Shown: positions 35,059 through 44,012 of the stretch, in pieces | Numbering within the stretch: position 1 is the first letter of the stretch | Layout of the letters: every line of letters starts with the position of its first letter | Origin: an uncultured Eggerthellaceae bacterium | GTDB taxonomy: Bacteria > Actinomycetota > Coriobacteriia > Coriobacteriales > Eggerthellaceae | Direction: 5' to 3' | Length of the DNA stretch: 64,000 bases | NCBI GenBank assembly: GCA_944321455.1 | Contig: CALULI010000006.1 | Location: 372,001-436,000 of the forward strand | Translations under genes and position numbers: made by a program | The notes under the pieces: generated by a model | What the model saw: the letters and a program-made list of their open reading frames with translations, nothing else | The model's database searches: none | Told to the model about the DNA's origin: nothing

Positions 35059-38000
35059 ATGGAAAAACAAAAAACAACAGACGAATTGCGTCTTGAATCG
35101 TATCTTTTAGAGAATACCCCTGATCGTATTGTGAATCGCTACGAAGGGCTGGCTACGTATGCGCAAAATCATACGTTCGGCGTCCTGGATAAAAGCGTGG
35201 TGGTCATTGATACCGAAACAACGGGTTTTTCGTTCAACCATGACGAACTTATCCAGATTGCCGCAGCGCGCATGACGGATGGCGAAATTACTGACTGGTA
35301 CATCACCTTCGTCAATCCTGGCAAGCCCATTCCTGACGAAGTGGCACATCTCACCAACATCCATGACAAAGATGTGGCGGATGCGCCTGATCCTGATACG
35401 GCTCTGGAGCAGCTGGTCGAATTTGTGGGTGATTCCTATTTGGTGGCTCACAATGCTAATTTTGACCGTACGTTCGTAACAAAGCGCGAAGCGGGGGCGT
35501 CCCTTAAGGAAAACATCTGGGTTGATTCGCTTGATTTGGCGCGGATTGCCTTGCCACGCATGAATTCGCATCGTCTTTTGGATTTGGTGCGCGCCTTTGG
35601 CGGGCCTGATTCAACGCATCGCGCTGATGATGACGTGGCATCCACCTGCCTGGTGTACCGCATCCTGTTAGCGGCAGTGGCGGCAATGCCTGATTCGTTG
35701 GTAGTGCACATTGCTGAAATGGCGGAGCTTGAAGACTGGAATACCGTCTATATTTTCAAGACCTTTGCCGAAGCAATGAGCGCCAAAACCACCAGTGCGG
35801 ACACAACCGGTGCTGAAACTGTCAGTGCTGAAGCCACCAGCGCCGAAGCTACCAGTGTCGAACCGTATCGTTTGATGGATGTGCGCCGCGAAGCGGCAGG
35901 CCGCTTGAACGATCATCTGCGCCAAGATGCGTTTAAGCCAACGACAGCAGAGCTGGAGCAGGCTCTTCAAGAAAATGGCGCAGGTGGCAAAGATACGGCA
36001 GGTGCAGGCGCTAAAGACGCAACAAGTCCAGCCGCACATCCAGTTGAGCTGCACTTTGTGGACGATGCCGCCATTGAGCACGCATTTTCTGCTGAAGGCA
36101 TCGTCGGCAAACTGTATGAAGACTATGAGATGCGCGACGAACAAAAAACCATGGCTTTGGCAGTCAATCGCGCCATTGCACACTCAGAAAACCTTGTTGT
36201 TGAGGCAGGCACGGGCGTTGGCAAGTCCATGGCATATTTGGTGCCTCTAGCGCTAGCAGCAAAAGAAAACAACATTACGGTTGGCGTTGCTACCAAGACA
36301 AACACGTTGCTTGACCAGCTTGTCAACAAAGAACTTCCCTTGCTCAAGCGTGAGCTGGGCATTAGCTATGCGCCGCTGAAGGGCTTTGTACATTACCCTT
36401 GCATGCGCAAGATTAATCAGATTGATAAGCAGGGCGCACGTCCCATTACGTACAAAAATCAGGTCGTTCAACAAGCTCCAGCGCTTGCTGGTTTGCTTTC
36501 ATTTATTGATCAGACCGACTACGACGATATTGACGGCTTAAAGATTGATTATCGCGCGCTTCCGCGGTGGTCTATTACCACCAAGAGTGCGGAATGTCTG
36601 CGCCGTAAGTGTCCGTTCTTTGGTCGCACCTGCTTTGTGCATGGCGCTCGTGAACAGGCACAGCGCAGCGATGTGGTGGTTACCAACCACAGCTTGCTGT
36701 TCTGGGATATTCGCTGCGAAGGCGGCTTGCTGCCACCTGTGCGCTACTGGGTGGTTGATGAGGCTCATGGTGCCGAAACAGAAGCGCGCCGCGCCTTCTC
36801 TTTGGAGGTTTCTTCGGAGGCAATTCACGGCCTCGTGCGCAAACTGACCAGCGATTCAGCGCGCACCAATGTGCTTATTCGCGCCGAGCGCACCACTATT
36901 GTCGAAGAAGAAGGCAAGCGATTGTATACGTCGCTCGTTCACAAGGCGCAGTCGGCCGCGCAAGCGTTTGGTATTGCAGGCGAAGAATTTACCCTGCGTG
37001 CTAAAGACCTGCTCTACTTTGATGAGGCAAAGCGCAGCCGCGGTTATGAATACTTCGACCTGTGGTTAAGCGATGAAATTCGTGCAAGCGAAACCTTTCG
37101 CAGCGTGGCATCAAGCGCGCGAGCGCTCTATGACACCACGGAAAAATTGATCGCAGCCATGCGCGATATCGTAGCCTATACGGAATCGTTAGATGATTCT
37201 TCGGAAGAACAGCGCGAATTGGCGTTGGCGGCGCTTGAATTGCGAGAGCTGTATGAAGGCCTTGATCAGGTCTTTTTCACCACCAGCGAAAACAAGGTGT
37301 ATGCCGTGCGCCTCAATCGCACCAAGGATAAGTTCAACGAAGTGTTTACCGTGCAACCACTTGATGTGGGCATCAGCTTGAATGAGTCGCTCTATCAAGA
37401 AACTAACAGCGTCATTTATACGTCTGCGACGCTGGCGGTGGATCACCATTTTGATTCGTTTAATCAGGGTATTGGACTTAACGAAGGTGAAGAATCGAAG
37501 GCTCGTTGCATTGAAATTGAATCCAACTATGACTTTGATTCCAATATGGCAATCTTTATTCCGTCCGATATGCCTGAGCCGTCGGATCCGCACTATTTGG
37601 ATGCGCTTCAAACATTCCTGGCGCAGTTACATGTGGCGCAGCAGGGGTCTCTGCTCACCCTTTTCACCAACCGCAAAGAAATGGAAAAGTGCTTCGATAC
37701 GGTCAACCCTGTGGTGAAAGCCGAAGGGTTGCGCTTGGTGTGCCAAAAGTGGGGTGTGTCCGTAAAGGGTTTGCGTGATGACTTCCTGAAAGATGAACAC
37801 TTAAGTTTGTTTGCGCTGAAGAGTTTCTGGGAAGGCTTTGACGCACCAGGATCTACCTTGCGCGGCGTGGTTATTCCGAAGCTGCCGTTTGGCTTGCCGA
37901 CGGATCCGCTTTCATGCGAACGCAGCCAGCGTGATGATCGTGCGTGGGCACACTATTCCCTTCCGTCAGCTGTTATTGATGTGAAGCAGGCCGTTGGGCG

Positions 38001-38274
38001 CTTGATCCGTCGTGCTGATGATAACGGCATTGTTGTGTTGGCGGATACGCGTTTGATTACCAAGTACTATGGCAAAAAGTTTTTGAATTCTCTGCCAAGC
38101 AAGAACATTTCCATTCTGCCGATGGACGACATTATTGAACAGGTTTGCGGACTGCAGCAGCGTGCTGAACAACAGCGCGCTGGACAACAACGTGCTGAAA
38201 AACAGCACGCTGAACAACAGCGAGCTGGGCAGCGCGCCACGCAGCAGAGCGCTACAAAACCAAGCGTTGAGTAA
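35059..38274 (+). CDS. dinG: DnaQ exonuclease-DinG helicase fusion
   Basis: A 1071-residue fusion. Residues about 45-205 form a DEDDh 3'-5' exonuclease domain: VVVIDTETTGFS (D51, E53), AHNANFDRTF, and HRADDDVAST with the catalytic His and Asp. The rest is an XPD/DinG superfamily 2 helicase with Walker A EAGTGVGKSMAYL, a four-Cys Fe-S region (HYPCMRK, AECLRRKCPF, GRTCF), DEAH box VVDEAHG and motif VI QAVGRLIRR. A Thr/Ser/Ala-rich repeat (TTSADTTGAETVSAEATSAE) links the domains, and an RAEQQRAGQQ repeat ends the protein. Similar fusions occur in Firmicutes. It is expected to unwind R-loops or G-quadruplexes and trim ends. Confidence 0.9.
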   Translation: MEKQKTTDELRLESYLLENTPDRIVNRYEGLATYAQNHTFGVLDKSVVVIDTETTGFSFNHDELIQIAAARMTDGEITDWYITFVNPGKPIPDEVAHLTNIHDKDVADAPDPDTALEQLVEFVGDSYLVAHNANFDRTFVTKREAGASLKENIWVDSLDLARIALPRMNSHRLLDLVRAFGGPDSTHRADDDVASTCLVYRILLAAVAAMPDSLVVHIAEMAELEDWNTVYIFKTFAEAMSAKTTSADTTGAETVSAEATSAEATSVEPYRLMDVRREAAGRLNDHLRQDAFKPTTAELEQALQENGAGGKDTAGAGAKDATSPAAHPVELHFVDDAAIEHAFSAEGIVGKLYEDYEMRDEQKTMALAVNRAIAHSENLVVEAGTGVGKSMAYLVPLALAAKENNITVGVATKTNTLLDQLVNKELPLLKRELGISYAPLKGFVHYPCMRKINQIDKQGARPITYKNQVVQQAPALAGLLSFIDQTDYDDIDGLKIDYRALPRWSITTKSAECLRRKCPFFGRTCFVHGAREQAQRSDVVVTNHSLLFWDIRCEGGLLPPVRYWVVDEAHGAETEARRAFSLEVSSEAIHGLVRKLTSDSARTNVLIRAERTTIVEEEGKRLYTSLVHKAQSAAQAFGIAGEEFTLRAKDLLYFDEAKRSRGYEYFDLWLSDEIRASETFRSVASSARALYDTTEKLIAAMRDIVAYTESLDDSSEEQRELALAALELRELYEGLDQVFFTTSENKVYAVRLNRTKDKFNEVFTVQPLDVGISLNESLYQETNSVIYTSATLAVDHHFDSFNQGIGLNEGEESKARCIEIESNYDFDSNMAIFIPSDMPEPSDPHYLDALQTFLAQLHVAQQGSLLTLFTNRKEMEKCFDTVNPVVKAEGLRLVCQKWGVSVKGLRDDFLKDEHLSLFALKSFWEGFDAPGSTLRGVVIPKLPFGLPTDPLSCERSQRDDRAWAHYSLPSAVIDVKQAVGRLIRRADDNGIVVLADTRLITKYYGKKFLNSLPSKNISILPMDDIIEQVCGLQQRAEQQRAGQQRAEKQHAEQQRAGQRATQQSATKPSVE

Positions 38275-38279
38275 AAACG

Positions 38280-39710
38280 ATGGCCAAACATAGCGACGGT
38301 AAGAGCGTAAACAAAAAGCAGCGACGCCTTGACCGACGAGAAGAAAAATCGCTGCATATTGTTGAATTTTCGGCTGGCAAGCCCAACGAAATTTCTTTTA
38401 ATGTGCTCGAAAAGATGGCTTCTGCTCAAGATGCGCAAGAAAAACCAGGACTGTTTGATCGCATTTTTCGTCGCAACAAGACTCAACATGGCCCATCAAA
38501 TCCTGTGATCGATTCAAGTGTGGCGGCATCAGCATCATCGACTGTCCCCTCGGGTGTGTCTGCTGCGGATTTGGCGTCTGGAACTGCTTCTAGCGCTGCA
38601 TCTGGGTCCGCGCCTGGCTCTGCGTCTGGCGCATTCGGAACATCCGACGGCGCAACGGCTTCCCGTGGCGGCGCATTCGGCACGCCCGGCGGCGCAGCAT
38701 CCCATGGCGCAACACCCCATACAGGTCCACGCAAACCATTTTTGGGCGAAGACTCGCGCCAGGAAATTAAGCGCAGGCAGACACAGCGCAAACGCTACCG
38801 CTTCGTGAGCATTGCAATCGTTGTTGTGGTGTGCGTTGGTCTTCTGGCGGCTGGCGGATACCAGGCGTATACCCATTACCAAACGCAGACCAGCAACGTT
38901 GCCGTCCTACAGCAATCGTGCGATCTGATTGAACAAAGCGACACCACCATTGTTGCGATTGATGAATTTTTCAAGGCAGAATTTGGCGATGACACCGTTC
39001 AGCGTGCGCAAGATCTGCTCGCGCAAATTCCCGATGCGCGCCAAACCTTAGTAAGTGCCCGCGCTTTGGCTAACCAAGCAAATCAGGGTCTCTATTCTTC
39101 CACCAGTGACAAAGAAGCATCCGAGCACGCCCTGGCCACCATTGATGCACGTGAAACATTGTTGGACAACGCGGAAAAGCGCTTGAACGAAGACATAGCG
39201 GCAAAGCAAGCAATGGATGCCATGAATAGCGCCTACGATTCTATTCAGCAGGGCAATTCGCTCTTAGGACAGGCGGCGCGTGAAGTTTCCACGGGTCAAG
39301 AATCCAGCGCGGATCAGATCAATCAATCGTCGGAATACACGCGCGAATCTCAAACAGCTTTCACTCAAGCACGTGATCAATTAGCGCAGGTGTCCACGTT
39401 GTACCCAAGCGCGGATATCAAAGACGAACAAGCATACGTTGAAGCGCGCATTGAGCAAACAAATTATGCGTTGGCATCCAACGAAGCCATGCTAATTCAG
39501 GACAAATCAACCGCTGAACAAAATAACGATTCGTATAACAATTTGGACAAAGAAGCCATTGCGCTTGCAGAGACTTTCGCGGAAAGTTTCGATCAGCCCG
39601 TCATTGATGCCTACGTTGCAAATACCCAGTCGCTTGTTGATGCGTACAATCAAGCGCGCAACGATATGGGCACTCATGATGACTATCTTCGCGGCTATTT
39701 GCACACATAA
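38280..39710 (+). CDS. Single-pass membrane protein with long coiled extracellular part
   Basis: Not recognised. A 476-residue protein starting 5 bases after dinG. Residues 1-70 are basic and polar. Residues about 78-150 are Ala/Ser/Gly-rich low complexity. One transmembrane helix (about 174-195, SIAIVVVVCVGLLAAGGY) is preceded by Lys/Arg residues (inside). Residues 200-476 are Gln/Ala/Asp-rich and helical with heptad-like patterns, probably an extracytoplasmic coiled coil. It shares the Ala/Gln style with the next gene. Spacing suggests co-transcription with dinG, but the function is unclear. Confidence 0.6.
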   Translation: MAKHSDGKSVNKKQRRLDRREEKSLHIVEFSAGKPNEISFNVLEKMASAQDAQEKPGLFDRIFRRNKTQHGPSNPVIDSSVAASASSTVPSGVSAADLASGTASSAASGSAPGSASGAFGTSDGATASRGGAFGTPGGAASHGATPHTGPRKPFLGEDSRQEIKRRQTQRKRYRFVSIAIVVVVCVGLLAAGGYQAYTHYQTQTSNVAVLQQSCDLIEQSDTTIVAIDEFFKAEFGDDTVQRAQDLLAQIPDARQTLVSARALANQANQGLYSSTSDKEASEHALATIDARETLLDNAEKRLNEDIAAKQAMDAMNSAYDSIQQGNSLLGQAAREVSTGQESSADQINQSSEYTRESQTAFTQARDQLAQVSTLYPSADIKDEQAYVEARIEQTNYALASNEAMLIQDKSTAEQNNDSYNNLDKEAIALAETFAESFDQPVIDAYVANTQSLVDAYNQARNDMGTHDDYLRGYLHT

Positions 39711-39862: not shown

Positions 39863-42800
39863 ATGGCAGGACTCATGGAAGACGTAGCGCATCTTACTCA
39901 GGAAATTGGACCTCGTCCAGCTGGTACTGAGGAAGAGCAACAGGCGGCACTGTTTATTGCCGATGAGCTTCAAAAAGAAGCTGGGTTCTCTACCGTTATT
40001 GAAGATTTCATTTGTGCACCAAATGCTGACATTCTAAAAATTATTTGTTACGCGCTTGCTTTGATTTGCGCGTTGGTTCCTCTAGTTTTGCCCGTTGCGG
40101 CTATCCCGTGTTTGATTATTGCCATTTTAGTGGTGGTTCTGTTCGTCTTTGATATGCGCGACAAACCACTCTTGGAGCGCTTCTTTAGCAACGGCGTAAG
40201 TCAAAATGTGGTTGCGAAATATCAGCCTTCTATTCCTGGCGCAGCGCAGCGTCGCCGCAAGATTGTTTTAGTTGCTAACTATGACAGCGGCAAAGCGGCA
40301 CTTGAAAATCGTGGTTTTTTGGGTCAAAACCTCAAGATTATTCGTATTGCGCTGGCAGTTCCTCTGGCTCTTGCGCCGCTCATGCTTTTGATCAAGACCG
40401 TTTTCTTCCTAAGTGATGCTGGCATTGCTTCTCTTATCTTTAATATCATCATCGTAATCTGCATGGTGTTGATGGCTATCCAGCTGGCTTTGATGATTAT
40501 GATGCGCGTTGGTCCTTTCACGCAGGGCGCTAACAACAACGCAAGTAGTGTTGCGGTTATGGTTGATGTTGCTCGTTCGGTGGGCAAGGGCCTGGTAAGC
40601 AACGAAGAGCTTGCGGCTCGCGCACAAGAAGATGGCGTAACGGTTCATGGCGAAGAAGCAGCGTATGCTGCTGATGTTGTGCCCGAAGGTACCGAACTTG
40701 AATACGCTGTTTCACGTGAAAAGCAAATGTCTCCAAGCGAATCTCTTGCTGCGGCAAAAGCTGCGATTGAGGCATTAACGGGCAAACCAGTTGCCGACAA
40801 AGTTCCTGTTACTGATATTTCTTCTAAGTTAGTTCAGCACGGCAATCTTGAGCCTGATCCTTTGATGGAAGAACAGGCCGCTGCCGTTCATTTTGAAGTG
40901 GGCGAACCTGTTGTGGTACCAGAAGAGCAGCGCACCTACACGCCGCGTGAGCGCATGGAAGCTCAAGAAGCTAAGCGCCAAAAAGAAGCGGCTCGTGCCG
41001 AAGAAGCTCAGCTTCTTGCCGAACAGCAGGCCCAGCAAGCAGCTTTGCAGCAAGCCGTTGCTGCTGTGCAGACCGATGGTCAGGGCGCTGCCGTAGCATC
41101 AGGAGTTGGTGTTGCAGCACAGGGCGTAGCAGCACAGCAAGCTGGTTCGCAAGCTGTTTCCGCAGCAGCTGATGCTGCGTATGCTCAAGGAGTAGCCCAA
41201 CAGGATCATTCCTTCGAACGCACGACGCCAGAAGCTTTGCAAGCTGGCAATACCGGCGTGAGCACATCGGTCGATCGCACGCCTTCATGGGCAAAGACCG
41301 CGCAAGCAAAAGCGCGTGCCAACAAGCCTGACATTGCGCAGTCCGCATCTACGGTTGGACGTTCGCGTTTTGCTGATACCGTTGCAGCACAGATCACTGC
41401 TGCTAATACGCCACCATCGCCTTTTGCTGCTCCAGCACCTGCTGCTCCTGCAACACCAAGTGCGCCTGCAGCTGCCGCACAGCCAGAAGAGCCTGTTGCT
41501 TCCACCACGTGGAGTCAGGCAATGCAAGCTCAAGCTGCTGTACAGTCAGAACCGCTGTCTCCTTTGGCAGCGCGCTTAGCTTCGCTTCGCAGCGAAATTG
41601 AATCAGTGGAAGCGCCTCATTTTTCTCAGGAAACCAAGGCAACTATTGATCACATGGCCCCAGAGGCTCAGCCAGCAGCGGTACAACCTGCAGCAGTGCA
41701 GCCACAGCCTACAGCGCAATCCGCAGCAGCCGAACAGCCTGTCGTGACGGTGCAGCCTGTGGCACAGCCTGCTCAGCCTCAGGGTGCAGATCAGGCAGCA
41801 GCACAGCAGCAGACAGCACAGCAAGCAGCGCCTGTGGTACAGGTACAGCCAACCGCGGCTGCGGCACAACAAGCAGTACCAGCTGCACAGCCAGCTACAG
41901 CGGAGCCTGCTCAGGAAGAAGTTTCGGGAAAGACTGAAGCAATTTCGCCTATCGATGTTTCCCAATATCTTGATAAAGAAGCAACCAGCGCCGCAACAGA
42001 CGCTATGCAAACGCGCGCAGCTGCTGAGGCCCGCGTTACCACAGCAGAGGCAGTTGCCACGAATCTGCCAACAGCTCCTGTAAGCAAGCAAGAAGTTCAG
42101 CAGGCTATTGCCGAAGCTGAAACTCACGTTGACGAAGTGGTAGAACAGTCTGCGCCAGCAGCTCCTGCGCAGGCACAAGCACGTGCTCAGCAGCCTGCAC
42201 AAGCAGCACCTGCCCAACCTGCTCAGCCAGAAGAAGCTCCCGTAGAGCCCACGCGCGCTATGCCTCGCGTAGCTGGTACGCCTGGCGCTGCACCTGGATC
42301 TGCTCCTGCTCCTGACGCAGCAGCGCAAAAGCAAGCACCTGTGGCACCTCCTATTGTGGGTCTTGAGTCCATGGCTTCTTCGCTGCCGACCATTGATCCT
42401 CAGCAGACACAAGAAGAACATTCCCGCCACGTCATTGTGCTGCCTGAAGTTTCTTCGCAAGCATCCTTGCCAGAAGAAAGCAAGCAGCGCGCACCAATGG
42501 CTGATTCCGCCGAATCCACGCAGTCGGGATCTAAGGCGTTGCTCTCCAACATGCTTCCCCGCATCGATTCGGCAGAAGAAGCGCCAACCGACCACGTTGA
42601 TACGTTTGGCCTCAACGTTCCTTCTCTTGACGACCGCCCTCAAAATGCAACGGTTTCTGCAACAGGATCGTTCTCAACCATTGGCGGCACGGGATCCTTT
42701 GCTCCTGTGGGCGATGAATTAGTGGCCGATGTTAATCCTGATGATCTCTACATTGACGACGCGGACGATTCTGCCTACGAAGAAGACTTTACCGAAACGG

Positions 42801-43732
42801 GCGCCTTTGCTGGTCCTGGCTATGTTGATATGCCTAAATCACGCGCAGGCCGTTTCTTCAGCAAGTTCCGCTCCAAGAAAAAGAAGAACAAGCACCAAGA
42901 CGAAGTTTCGGTCAACGAATGGATTGACACGGACGATTCCTACGATGCACGCAGCGTTGGTAAGGCTCGAGGCAGCTGGGAAAGCTTCCGTGATGATGAC
43001 TACGACACCTACGATGATGGTTACGATAGCAACGATAACTTTGTCGATATCGACTTTGATGATGGTTTCGACGATGACCGCGGTTGGCGCGGCGGTGCCT
43101 TCTCTTTGAGCCGTCTGACGAAACGCCGCCAGCGTGTTGATGCAGATCCTGAAGAGGGTATGGACGATCAGTTTGATGATGCGTATGGCGCTGATCAAGC
43201 ATCCGCCCAGCCTGTGATTTCAACCTACCATGATCAGGAATCTGACCAGATTAATCGCGAGCTGACCAAGATTAACGATTTCCGTCATCCTGACATTGAT
43301 ACGGAAGTGTGGTTTGTAGCTTTGGGTGCCGAATTGGCTAACCACGGCGGCATGCATGCGTTCATGAAGGAACATGCTAATGAACTTAAAGGGGCAATCT
43401 TTATTAATCTTGAATCGCTTGGTGCGGGCCGCTTGACCTACATTGAAGAAGAAGGTCAGCTGTTGACGAAGAAGCCTTCGTCTCGCTTGAAGCGCATCTT
43501 GCGTCAAGCCCAGGAGCGCTCGGGTGTTTCCTTTGCACAAGGTAAGATTCTTGGTCGTGACACAACGGCAACCATTGCCATGAAGCATGGCTATCAAGGC
43601 GTTACCCTTGCAGGCATGGAGGGATCACAAAGCGTGGGATATGCTTCGCCAACTGATGAATTTGAAGAAGTGGATGAACAGATTTTGAGTGAAAATGCAA
43701 AATTTGTCCTCTCAGTTCTGAAAAGCATTTAA
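39863..43732 (+). CDS. Giant M28-like membrane protein with degenerate metal site and disordered insertion
   Basis: A 1289-residue protein. The first 240 residues resemble an M28 peptidase N-half (LTQEIGPRPAGTEEEQQAALFI) with four membrane helices (about 58-98 and 158-214). The C-terminal 150 residues resemble the M28 C-half, ending SPTDEFEEVDEQIL. Between them lie about 900 residues of Ala/Gln/Pro/Glu-rich and then Asp-rich sequence. Metal ligands look lost. NYDS has Asn139 for His and GANNNAS has Asn for Asp. GAEL has Leu1158 for Glu, NLES has Glu1184 for Asp, and TTATIAM has no His. It may be a catalytically dead scaffold. The start at 39863 has a GGGGACG ribosome-binding site. Confidence 0.7.
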   Translation: MAGLMEDVAHLTQEIGPRPAGTEEEQQAALFIADELQKEAGFSTVIEDFICAPNADILKIICYALALICALVPLVLPVAAIPCLIIAILVVVLFVFDMRDKPLLERFFSNGVSQNVVAKYQPSIPGAAQRRRKIVLVANYDSGKAALENRGFLGQNLKIIRIALAVPLALAPLMLLIKTVFFLSDAGIASLIFNIIIVICMVLMAIQLALMIMMRVGPFTQGANNNASSVAVMVDVARSVGKGLVSNEELAARAQEDGVTVHGEEAAYAADVVPEGTELEYAVSREKQMSPSESLAAAKAAIEALTGKPVADKVPVTDISSKLVQHGNLEPDPLMEEQAAAVHFEVGEPVVVPEEQRTYTPRERMEAQEAKRQKEAARAEEAQLLAEQQAQQAALQQAVAAVQTDGQGAAVASGVGVAAQGVAAQQAGSQAVSAAADAAYAQGVAQQDHSFERTTPEALQAGNTGVSTSVDRTPSWAKTAQAKARANKPDIAQSASTVGRSRFADTVAAQITAANTPPSPFAAPAPAAPATPSAPAAAAQPEEPVASTTWSQAMQAQAAVQSEPLSPLAARLASLRSEIESVEAPHFSQETKATIDHMAPEAQPAAVQPAAVQPQPTAQSAAAEQPVVTVQPVAQPAQPQGADQAAAQQQTAQQAAPVVQVQPTAAAAQQAVPAAQPATAEPAQEEVSGKTEAISPIDVSQYLDKEATSAATDAMQTRAAAEARVTTAEAVATNLPTAPVSKQEVQQAIAEAETHVDEVVEQSAPAAPAQAQARAQQPAQAAPAQPAQPEEAPVEPTRAMPRVAGTPGAAPGSAPAPDAAAQKQAPVAPPIVGLESMASSLPTIDPQQTQEEHSRHVIVLPEVSSQASLPEESKQRAPMADSAESTQSGSKALLSNMLPRIDSAEEAPTDHVDTFGLNVPSLDDRPQNATVSATGSFSTIGGTGSFAPVGDELVADVNPDDLYIDDADDSAYEEDFTETGAFAGPGYVDMPKSRAGRFFSKFRSKKKKNKHQDEVSVNEWIDTDDSYDARSVGKARGSWESFRDDDYDTYDDGYDSNDNFVDIDFDDGFDDDRGWRGGAFSLSRLTKRRQRVDADPEEGMDDQFDDAYGADQASAQPVISTYHDQESDQINRELTKINDFRHPDIDTEVWFVALGAELANHGGMHAFMKEHANELKGAIFINLESLGAGRLTYIEEEGQLLTKKPSSRLKRILRQAQERSGVSFAQGKILGRDTTATIAMKHGYQGVTLAGMEGSQSVGYASPTDEFEEVDEQILSENAKFVLSVLKSI

Positions 43733-43856: not shown

Positions 43857-44012
43857 ATGGCAGTTATTGCTTATTGCGTAAAGTGCAAAGAAAAGAAGGA
43901 AATGGTTGACCCTCAGGAAGGCGTTACCAAGAACGGTCGTATCATCACCAAGGGTACCTGCCCTGATTGCGGAACCAAGATGTCTCTGATCGGCGGCGTA
44001 AAGAAGGATTAA
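43857..44012 (+). CDS. Small zinc-ribbon protein (DUF5679-like)
   Basis: A 51-residue basic protein (MAVIAYCVKCKEKKEMVDPQ, ending LIGGVKKD). Two Cys-x2-Cys pairs (CVKC and CPDC) form a probable zinc ribbon. An AGAGG ribosome-binding site lies six bases before the ATG. A terminator follows. Small proteins of this type are annotated DUF5679 in Actinobacteria, but their role is unknown. It is too short for most ORF callers. Confidence 0.75.
   Translation: MAVIAYCVKCKEKKEMVDPQEGVTKNGRIITKGTCPDCGTKMSLIGGVKKD

Follow-up and report, generated by a model that had tools for sequence, protein, structure and literature searches.

The aminopeptidases of the M28 family, among them YwaD/BSAP, the Aeromonas/Vibrio aminopeptidase and Streptomyces SGAP, have a full metal site and are enzymatically active. 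To our knowledge, none of these three carries membrane hairpins inside its fold or a long insert. Transferrin receptor 1 is an inactive M28-fold membrane protein used for binding; it is an extracellular, dimeric type II receptor, and we know of no disordered loop within its fold. In eukaryotes, the multipass translocon and gamma-secretase contain the M28-like membrane subunits nicalin and nicastrin, respectively, whose peptidase-like domain is without catalysis and serves the membrane complex. The complexes to which these two subunits belong have been described (PMC7505659).

In a computational analysis of 64,000 nt of DNA from an uncultured Eggerthellaceae bacterium (contig CALULI010000006.1; this whole stretch is termed the window, and positions are counted from its first letter), we considered a gene, termed pM28, whose product has an M28 fold, an incomplete metal site and a very long loop. 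As the metal ligands are gone while the motif-studded loop is kept under selection, pM28 is probably a docking scaffold and not an enzyme. We judge it moderately probable that the protein acts as a scaffold or adaptor through its loop.

Layout and predicted fold of pM28

The gene and its parts are located as follows.

39863-43732, + strand: pM28, 1289-aa membrane-anchored M28 pseudo-peptidase with a long disordered insert
39863-40597, + strand: N half of the M28 fold, residues 1-245 (family alignment A2, predicted fold of a homologue)
40019-40174, + strand: predicted membrane hairpin 1, about residues 53-104 (hydropathy, model helices)
40328-40522, + strand: predicted membrane hairpin 2, about residues 156-220 (hydropathy, homologue model)
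40598-43276, + strand: disordered insert, about residues 246-1138 (homologue pLDDT mostly below 50, composition)
43277-43732, + strand: C half of the M28 fold, residues 1139-1289 (PF04389, alignment A1)

The open reading frame begins with ATG and encodes 1289 aa with no internal stop codon. Peptidase_M28 (PF04389) matches residues 1144-1284 with 21.7 bits against a Pfam cut-off of 21.3, and the same profile matches 38 of the 39 full-length relatives at E ≤ 0.01; the M28 identity of pM28 is not a chance result. Because the M28 domain is split, the N half matches YwaD only weakly. By hydropathy, hydrophobic stretches are confined to residues 49-104 and 156-220, with none at either end of the protein. 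This hydropathy profile, together with the absence of a signal peptide and the presence of basic loops, suggests that the long loop lies on the cytosolic side.

A homologue from Adlercreutzia equolifaciens (L117, 1025 aa) was modelled in place of pM28, from an alignment of 39 rows. In this model both halves have pLDDT values of about 88-97, most of the insert falls below 50, and the two halves join into a single M28 domain with an alpha/beta fold. Helices 56-98 and 152-215, which correspond to the membrane hairpins, interrupt the N half. The model matches 6hc6 with Z 32.7 (rmsd 3.5, 277 residues) and 1amp with Z 29.6 (rmsd 2.6 Å, 254 residues). The latter comparison is the overlay of the joined halves on 1AMP called for by the original prediction, carried out here on the homologue. 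The 1289-residue protein has two halves of an M28 fold at its ends, as originally described, and its membrane anchoring is likewise supported.

The metal site

The positions of the M28 metal site in pM28 are occupied as follows.

40277-40279, + strand: Asn139, at the first metal-ligand His
40535-40537, + strand: Asn225, at the bridging-Asp position (GANNNAS for GANDNAS)
43331-43336, + strand: Glu1157, the retained general base, and Leu1158, in place of the ligand Glu
43412-43414, + strand: Glu1184, at the ligand Asp
43640-43642, + strand: Tyr1260, where the last ligand His would stand

These columns were anchored by homologues that keep HYDS, GANDNASG, TGAEE, NLDN and NWHW.TDT, and the D, EE, D and H columns also by a compact relative (L187) aligned to Bacillus YwaD 6hc6 (GANDN, EE, NLD, H). 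None of the five M28 metal ligands (H, D, E, D, H) is present in pM28, where their places are taken by N139, N225, L1158, E1184 and Y1260, and Glu1157 supplies the general-base residue of an M28 metallopeptidase. The homologue-anchored columns confirm each assignment that had been made from the single sequence, including the absence of the final His. By fold and sequence pM28 is a member of the M28 family, and it lacks the metal ligands that characterize an M28 metallopeptidase. It very probably has no M28 peptidase activity, and the lost ligands and the homologue fold support its earlier description as a pseudo-peptidase, in which inactivity is predicted from these features.

An incomplete metal site is found in every Eggerthellaceae and other Coriobacteriales homologue examined. 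The original prediction suggested searching relatives for conservation of the Asn and Leu substitutions; these proved not to be conserved, as the dead-site residues differ between species (N/R/H/P, N/C/S/D/V, L/Q/Y/I and so on in the lost-ligand columns), and within Eggerthellaceae they have decayed along many separate lines. In the family alignment, Asp141 and the Asn226 column show no variation and other fold residues are fixed, while the lost ligand positions vary. Such free variation argues that the pocket has been abandoned and not re-tooled. It also bears on the proposal that pM28 is a receptor, with a dead pocket that still recognizes a peptide or metabolite and a loop that passes on the signal. 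The invariant Asp141 and Asn226 column, the presence of Glu1157 in nearly all Eggerthellaceae and the strong selection on the fold (dN/dS values below) would suit a receptor, but ligand columns that differ freely among species, and the loss of Glu1157 in other Coriobacteriales families, are unexpected if one conserved ligand is recognized. We therefore regard a receptor as unlikely.

The loop and the neighbouring genes

The following blocks of the insert are conserved.

40631-40798, + strand: residues 257-312, HGEEAA..VVPEG.EL.Y and AAAKAAI.ALTGKPV (conservation scan, shuffle comparison)
41273-41401, + strand: residues 471-513, P.W...AQ.KAK .. RSR(Y/F)AD (conservation scan, shuffle comparison)
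42425-42634, + strand: residues 855-924, IVLP, KQRAP, LL..MLP and LPSL (conservation scan)
42650-42892, + strand: residues 930-1010, TG(S/A)F repeats, VDDADDS, TETGAFAGPGYVEMPKSR and a basic patch (conservation scan, shuffle comparison)
42905-43117, + strand: residues 1015-1085, EW(L/I)..D..(F/Y)DAR..G..RG.WESF .. W.GGAFS (also in ligand-complete homologues)

The pM28 insert is about 890 aa long, and in the conservation scan about a dozen ordered blocks are kept in it, with an information content near that of the core. An insertion of about 900 low-complexity residues had been described originally; the size stands, and the low complexity holds only in part, given the dozen conserved, ordered blocks. 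Of 30 inserts taken from beyond Eggerthellaceae, 27 contain the motif of block 1015-1085, versus none of 600 shuffled inserts, and 12 contain that of block 257-312, versus one of the 600. Because the former is common to ligand-complete and ligand-poor homologues, its role is independent of the metal site and of catalysis. No other protein with the main insert block was found in the same genome. The conserved string of motifs could also serve regulation or turnover rather than docking.

Two further observations concern the insert. The TG(S/T/A)F repeats (42650-42892, + strand) have Phe at +3 of Thr, and the genome encodes three FHA matches. Nothing connects these matches with the repeats, and the TG(S/A)F repeats as possible phosphothreonine docking sites for FHA proteins are no more than an idea. 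A Cys/Arg-rich frame of 346 aa also runs antisense to the insert (41603-42643, - strand), and is probably a by-product of Ala/Gln/Pro-rich codons and not a gene.

Upstream of pM28 the window carries the following features.

35059-38274, + strand: DnaQ-DinG exonuclease-helicase, conserved upstream neighbour, preceding TM476
38280-39710, + strand: TM476, with a cytosolic tail, one membrane helix and a long extracytoplasmic helical bundle (hydropathy, model)
38343-38414, + strand: conserved motif of the TM476 cytosolic tail, H(I/V)...(T/S).G..NE(I/L)S(F/L).VL
38790-38873, + strand: TM476 membrane helix, about residues 171-198 (hydropathy)

In almost every named Eggerthellaceae locus the gene immediately before pM28 is TM476, which is also found upstream of pM28 in other families and in another order. 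It is modelled as a disordered tail, a single membrane helix and a long helical bundle of high confidence, and a structure search of the PDB with this model gave no significant match. The pairing makes TM476 the likeliest membrane partner of pM28, with which it may be in contact. There are also four loci (L034, L042, L047 and L048) where no TM476 adjoins pM28, and in the class-wide search families f4 and f10 gave mostly weak (E about 1e-4) or no TM476 matches. TM476 is thus not needed everywhere. The weak matches in f4 and f10, considered as true homologues, were rejected as probable coiled-coil noise.

Other genes reside near pM28. In the window, a 51-aa zinc-ribbon-like protein (DUF5679, PF18930, E 1.3e-17) is encoded directly downstream (43857-44012, + strand). 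A pair of TrkA potassium-uptake regulator genes is found downstream of pM28 in several families (L061, L066, L067 and L068) and near it in another order of the class (L179-L181). Divergent pairs of WYL regulator genes, one member with a PafC-type helix-turn-helix, are located upstream of TM476/pM28 in L066, L067, L068, L070 and L071.

PafBC controls the mycobacterial DNA-damage response (PMC6789036, PMC11804915), and the pM28/TM476 pair might accordingly act in an envelope DNA-damage response under PafBC-type regulators. Divergent WYL/PafC-type genes upstream in six other Coriobacteriales families point in this direction, as does DnaQ-DinG upstream in Eggerthellaceae and two other families. 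However, no WYL genes were found beside pM28 in its own family, and the TrkA potassium-uptake genes are also conserved neighbours elsewhere, and we consider this role quite improbable.

In the scaffold explanation that we prefer, the non-catalytic M28 domain would be held at the cytoplasmic membrane, on its inner face, by two helical hairpins inside its own fold. The domain would grip both ends of the roughly 890-residue disordered cytosolic loop, which would thereby be pinned to the membrane at both ends, and the dozen or so conserved short motifs of the loop would dock partner proteins. The likeliest partner in the membrane would be TM476, through its conserved cytosolic tail and its long helical extracytoplasmic domain. 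Taken as a whole, this explanation seems to us reasonably probable.

Distribution, selection and history

Among genomes requested at ≥90% completeness, 293 of 298 from Coriobacteriia carry a pM28 homologue, with one match per genome among the matches listed. pM28 is a single-copy core gene of the Coriobacteriia, and what had been put forward as a plausible new family is thus a widespread one. A search with the C half gave a homologue in 54 of the 59 relatives, which belong to ten families, and the nearest named match is from Anaerotardibacter muris (57% in the C half). All 40 Coriobacteriales homologues examined with flanking DNA (one of which, L062, has its N end cut by a contig end) consist of an N half with two hydrophobic hairpins, an insert of 325-1275 aa and a C half of about 150 aa, so that the insertion, whose conservation the original prediction proposed to check, is kept in every one. 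For close pairs, dN/dS (Nei-Gojobori) ranges over 0.03-0.18 for the core and 0.09-0.24 for the insert, compared with 0.13 for a compact ligand-complete pair; several pairs show high synonymous divergence, which makes these values rough. Purifying selection acts on both core and insert, and ratios well below 1 in the two parts exclude neutral decay.

Compact relatives in other classes of Actinomycetota (about 380-450 aa; 381-437 aa for L184-L187 and L189) have the same halves as pM28, with two hairpins at the same places. They are the opposite of pM28 in that the insert is absent and the metal site is complete, and they are predicted to be active. The architecture and insert motif of pM28 also occur in ten homologues from sister orders (L205-L214), which have a short insert (167-258 aa) and a complete metal site. 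An early tally, in which no insert-bearing protein had a complete site, was overturned by these ten once further families of the class had been sampled. Homologues with standard ligands and measurable peptidase activity had been named as grounds for abandoning the original prediction; the first half of this was found, as these sister-order proteins have full ligands together with the same insert. Their existence indicates that the insertion came first, in a probable working peptidase, and that catalysis was lost later. A second M28 match is also present in the genome under study (G000:C7:14527-14802, L203, a 391-aa frame).

Ligand losses are nested among insert-bearing homologues (L179-L181 and L215), and with the further losses in Coriobacteriales and in f74-f76 they mean that catalysis has probably disappeared on several occasions. 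The second of two trees requires at least four changes of the metal-site label, three of them forced by well-supported branches. Several compact relatives from other classes that have no insert (L182, L183, L188, L190, L192, L197 and L198) have also lost several M28 ligands, and inactivation has thus been repeated within the membrane M28 group. The insert arises by one change in the first tree (support 91/75) and by two in the second. A single origin is favoured, though not proven, because the insert motif is held in common and because fast-evolving dead sequences may be drawn together.

It is conceivable that pM28 has remained an enzyme, acting with a single metal or by a different chemistry, whether at the original site or at another. 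The M28-fold glutaminyl cyclases work with one zinc and are among the close structural matches of the L117 model, and both Glu1157 and Asp141 are kept in pM28. However, the residues on which one-metal and two-metal M28-fold enzymes alike usually rely at the ligand positions are missing from pM28, and these positions are not fixed across the family, which makes such activity very unlikely. A decaying peptidase remnant with runaway low-complexity expansion, as the Ala/Gln/Pro-rich insert of varying length (325 to 1275 aa in Coriobacteriales) might suggest, is scarcely credible for a single-copy gene of 293 of 298 genomes with dN/dS well below 1 in both parts and conserved, ordered motifs. A pseudogene is ruled out by selection and near-universal presence.

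The scaffold explanation can be extended, tentatively and at somewhat less than even odds, to a broader proposal. The M28 fold would have become a membrane-pinned clamp that gathers a long disordered chain into a loop with a dozen docking motifs, and together with TM476 it might make up a hub across the envelope on which nearly all Coriobacteriia depend; the loop would have arisen while the peptidase was still active and persisted after catalysis had been given up on several occasions. The class whose core gene set includes pM28 contains common gut bacteria, such as Eggerthella, Gordonibacter, Slackia and Adlercreutzia. In the open-access literature, the only kind searched, we found no relevant description of an Eggerthella or Coriobacteria M28 protein or of a bacterial pseudo-M28, and pM28 is apparently a core gene without prior description. 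The family amounts to a repeated natural experiment, in which one membrane peptidase with a loop exists today in ligand-complete and ligand-poor forms, and what a pseudoenzyme keeps after the loss of catalysis is therefore directly testable. In pM28, an enzyme fold is interrupted by an insert of two to three times its size, and is nevertheless predicted to fold.

The core fold of pM28 is that of the M28 aminopeptidases (YwaD/BSAP 6hc6, Aeromonas/Vibrio AP 1amp and Streptomyces SGAP; Z 29.6-32.7), and transferrin receptor 1 is also a structural match to the homologue model (Z about 26-27). Nicastrin and nicalin have an inactive M28-like domain, as does pM28, in which the metal site is incomplete and inactivity is predicted. 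In those two proteins, however, the domain is a lumenal or extracellular ectodomain followed by one C-terminal helix, whereas the domain of pM28 is predicted to be cytosolic, with hairpins inside the fold and a giant loop; pM28 does not have their combination of a signal peptide, a lumenal ectodomain and a single C-terminal helix. By analogy, pM28 may work most like nicalin, nicastrin or the transferrin receptor, from which it differs in its predicted topology and in its loop.
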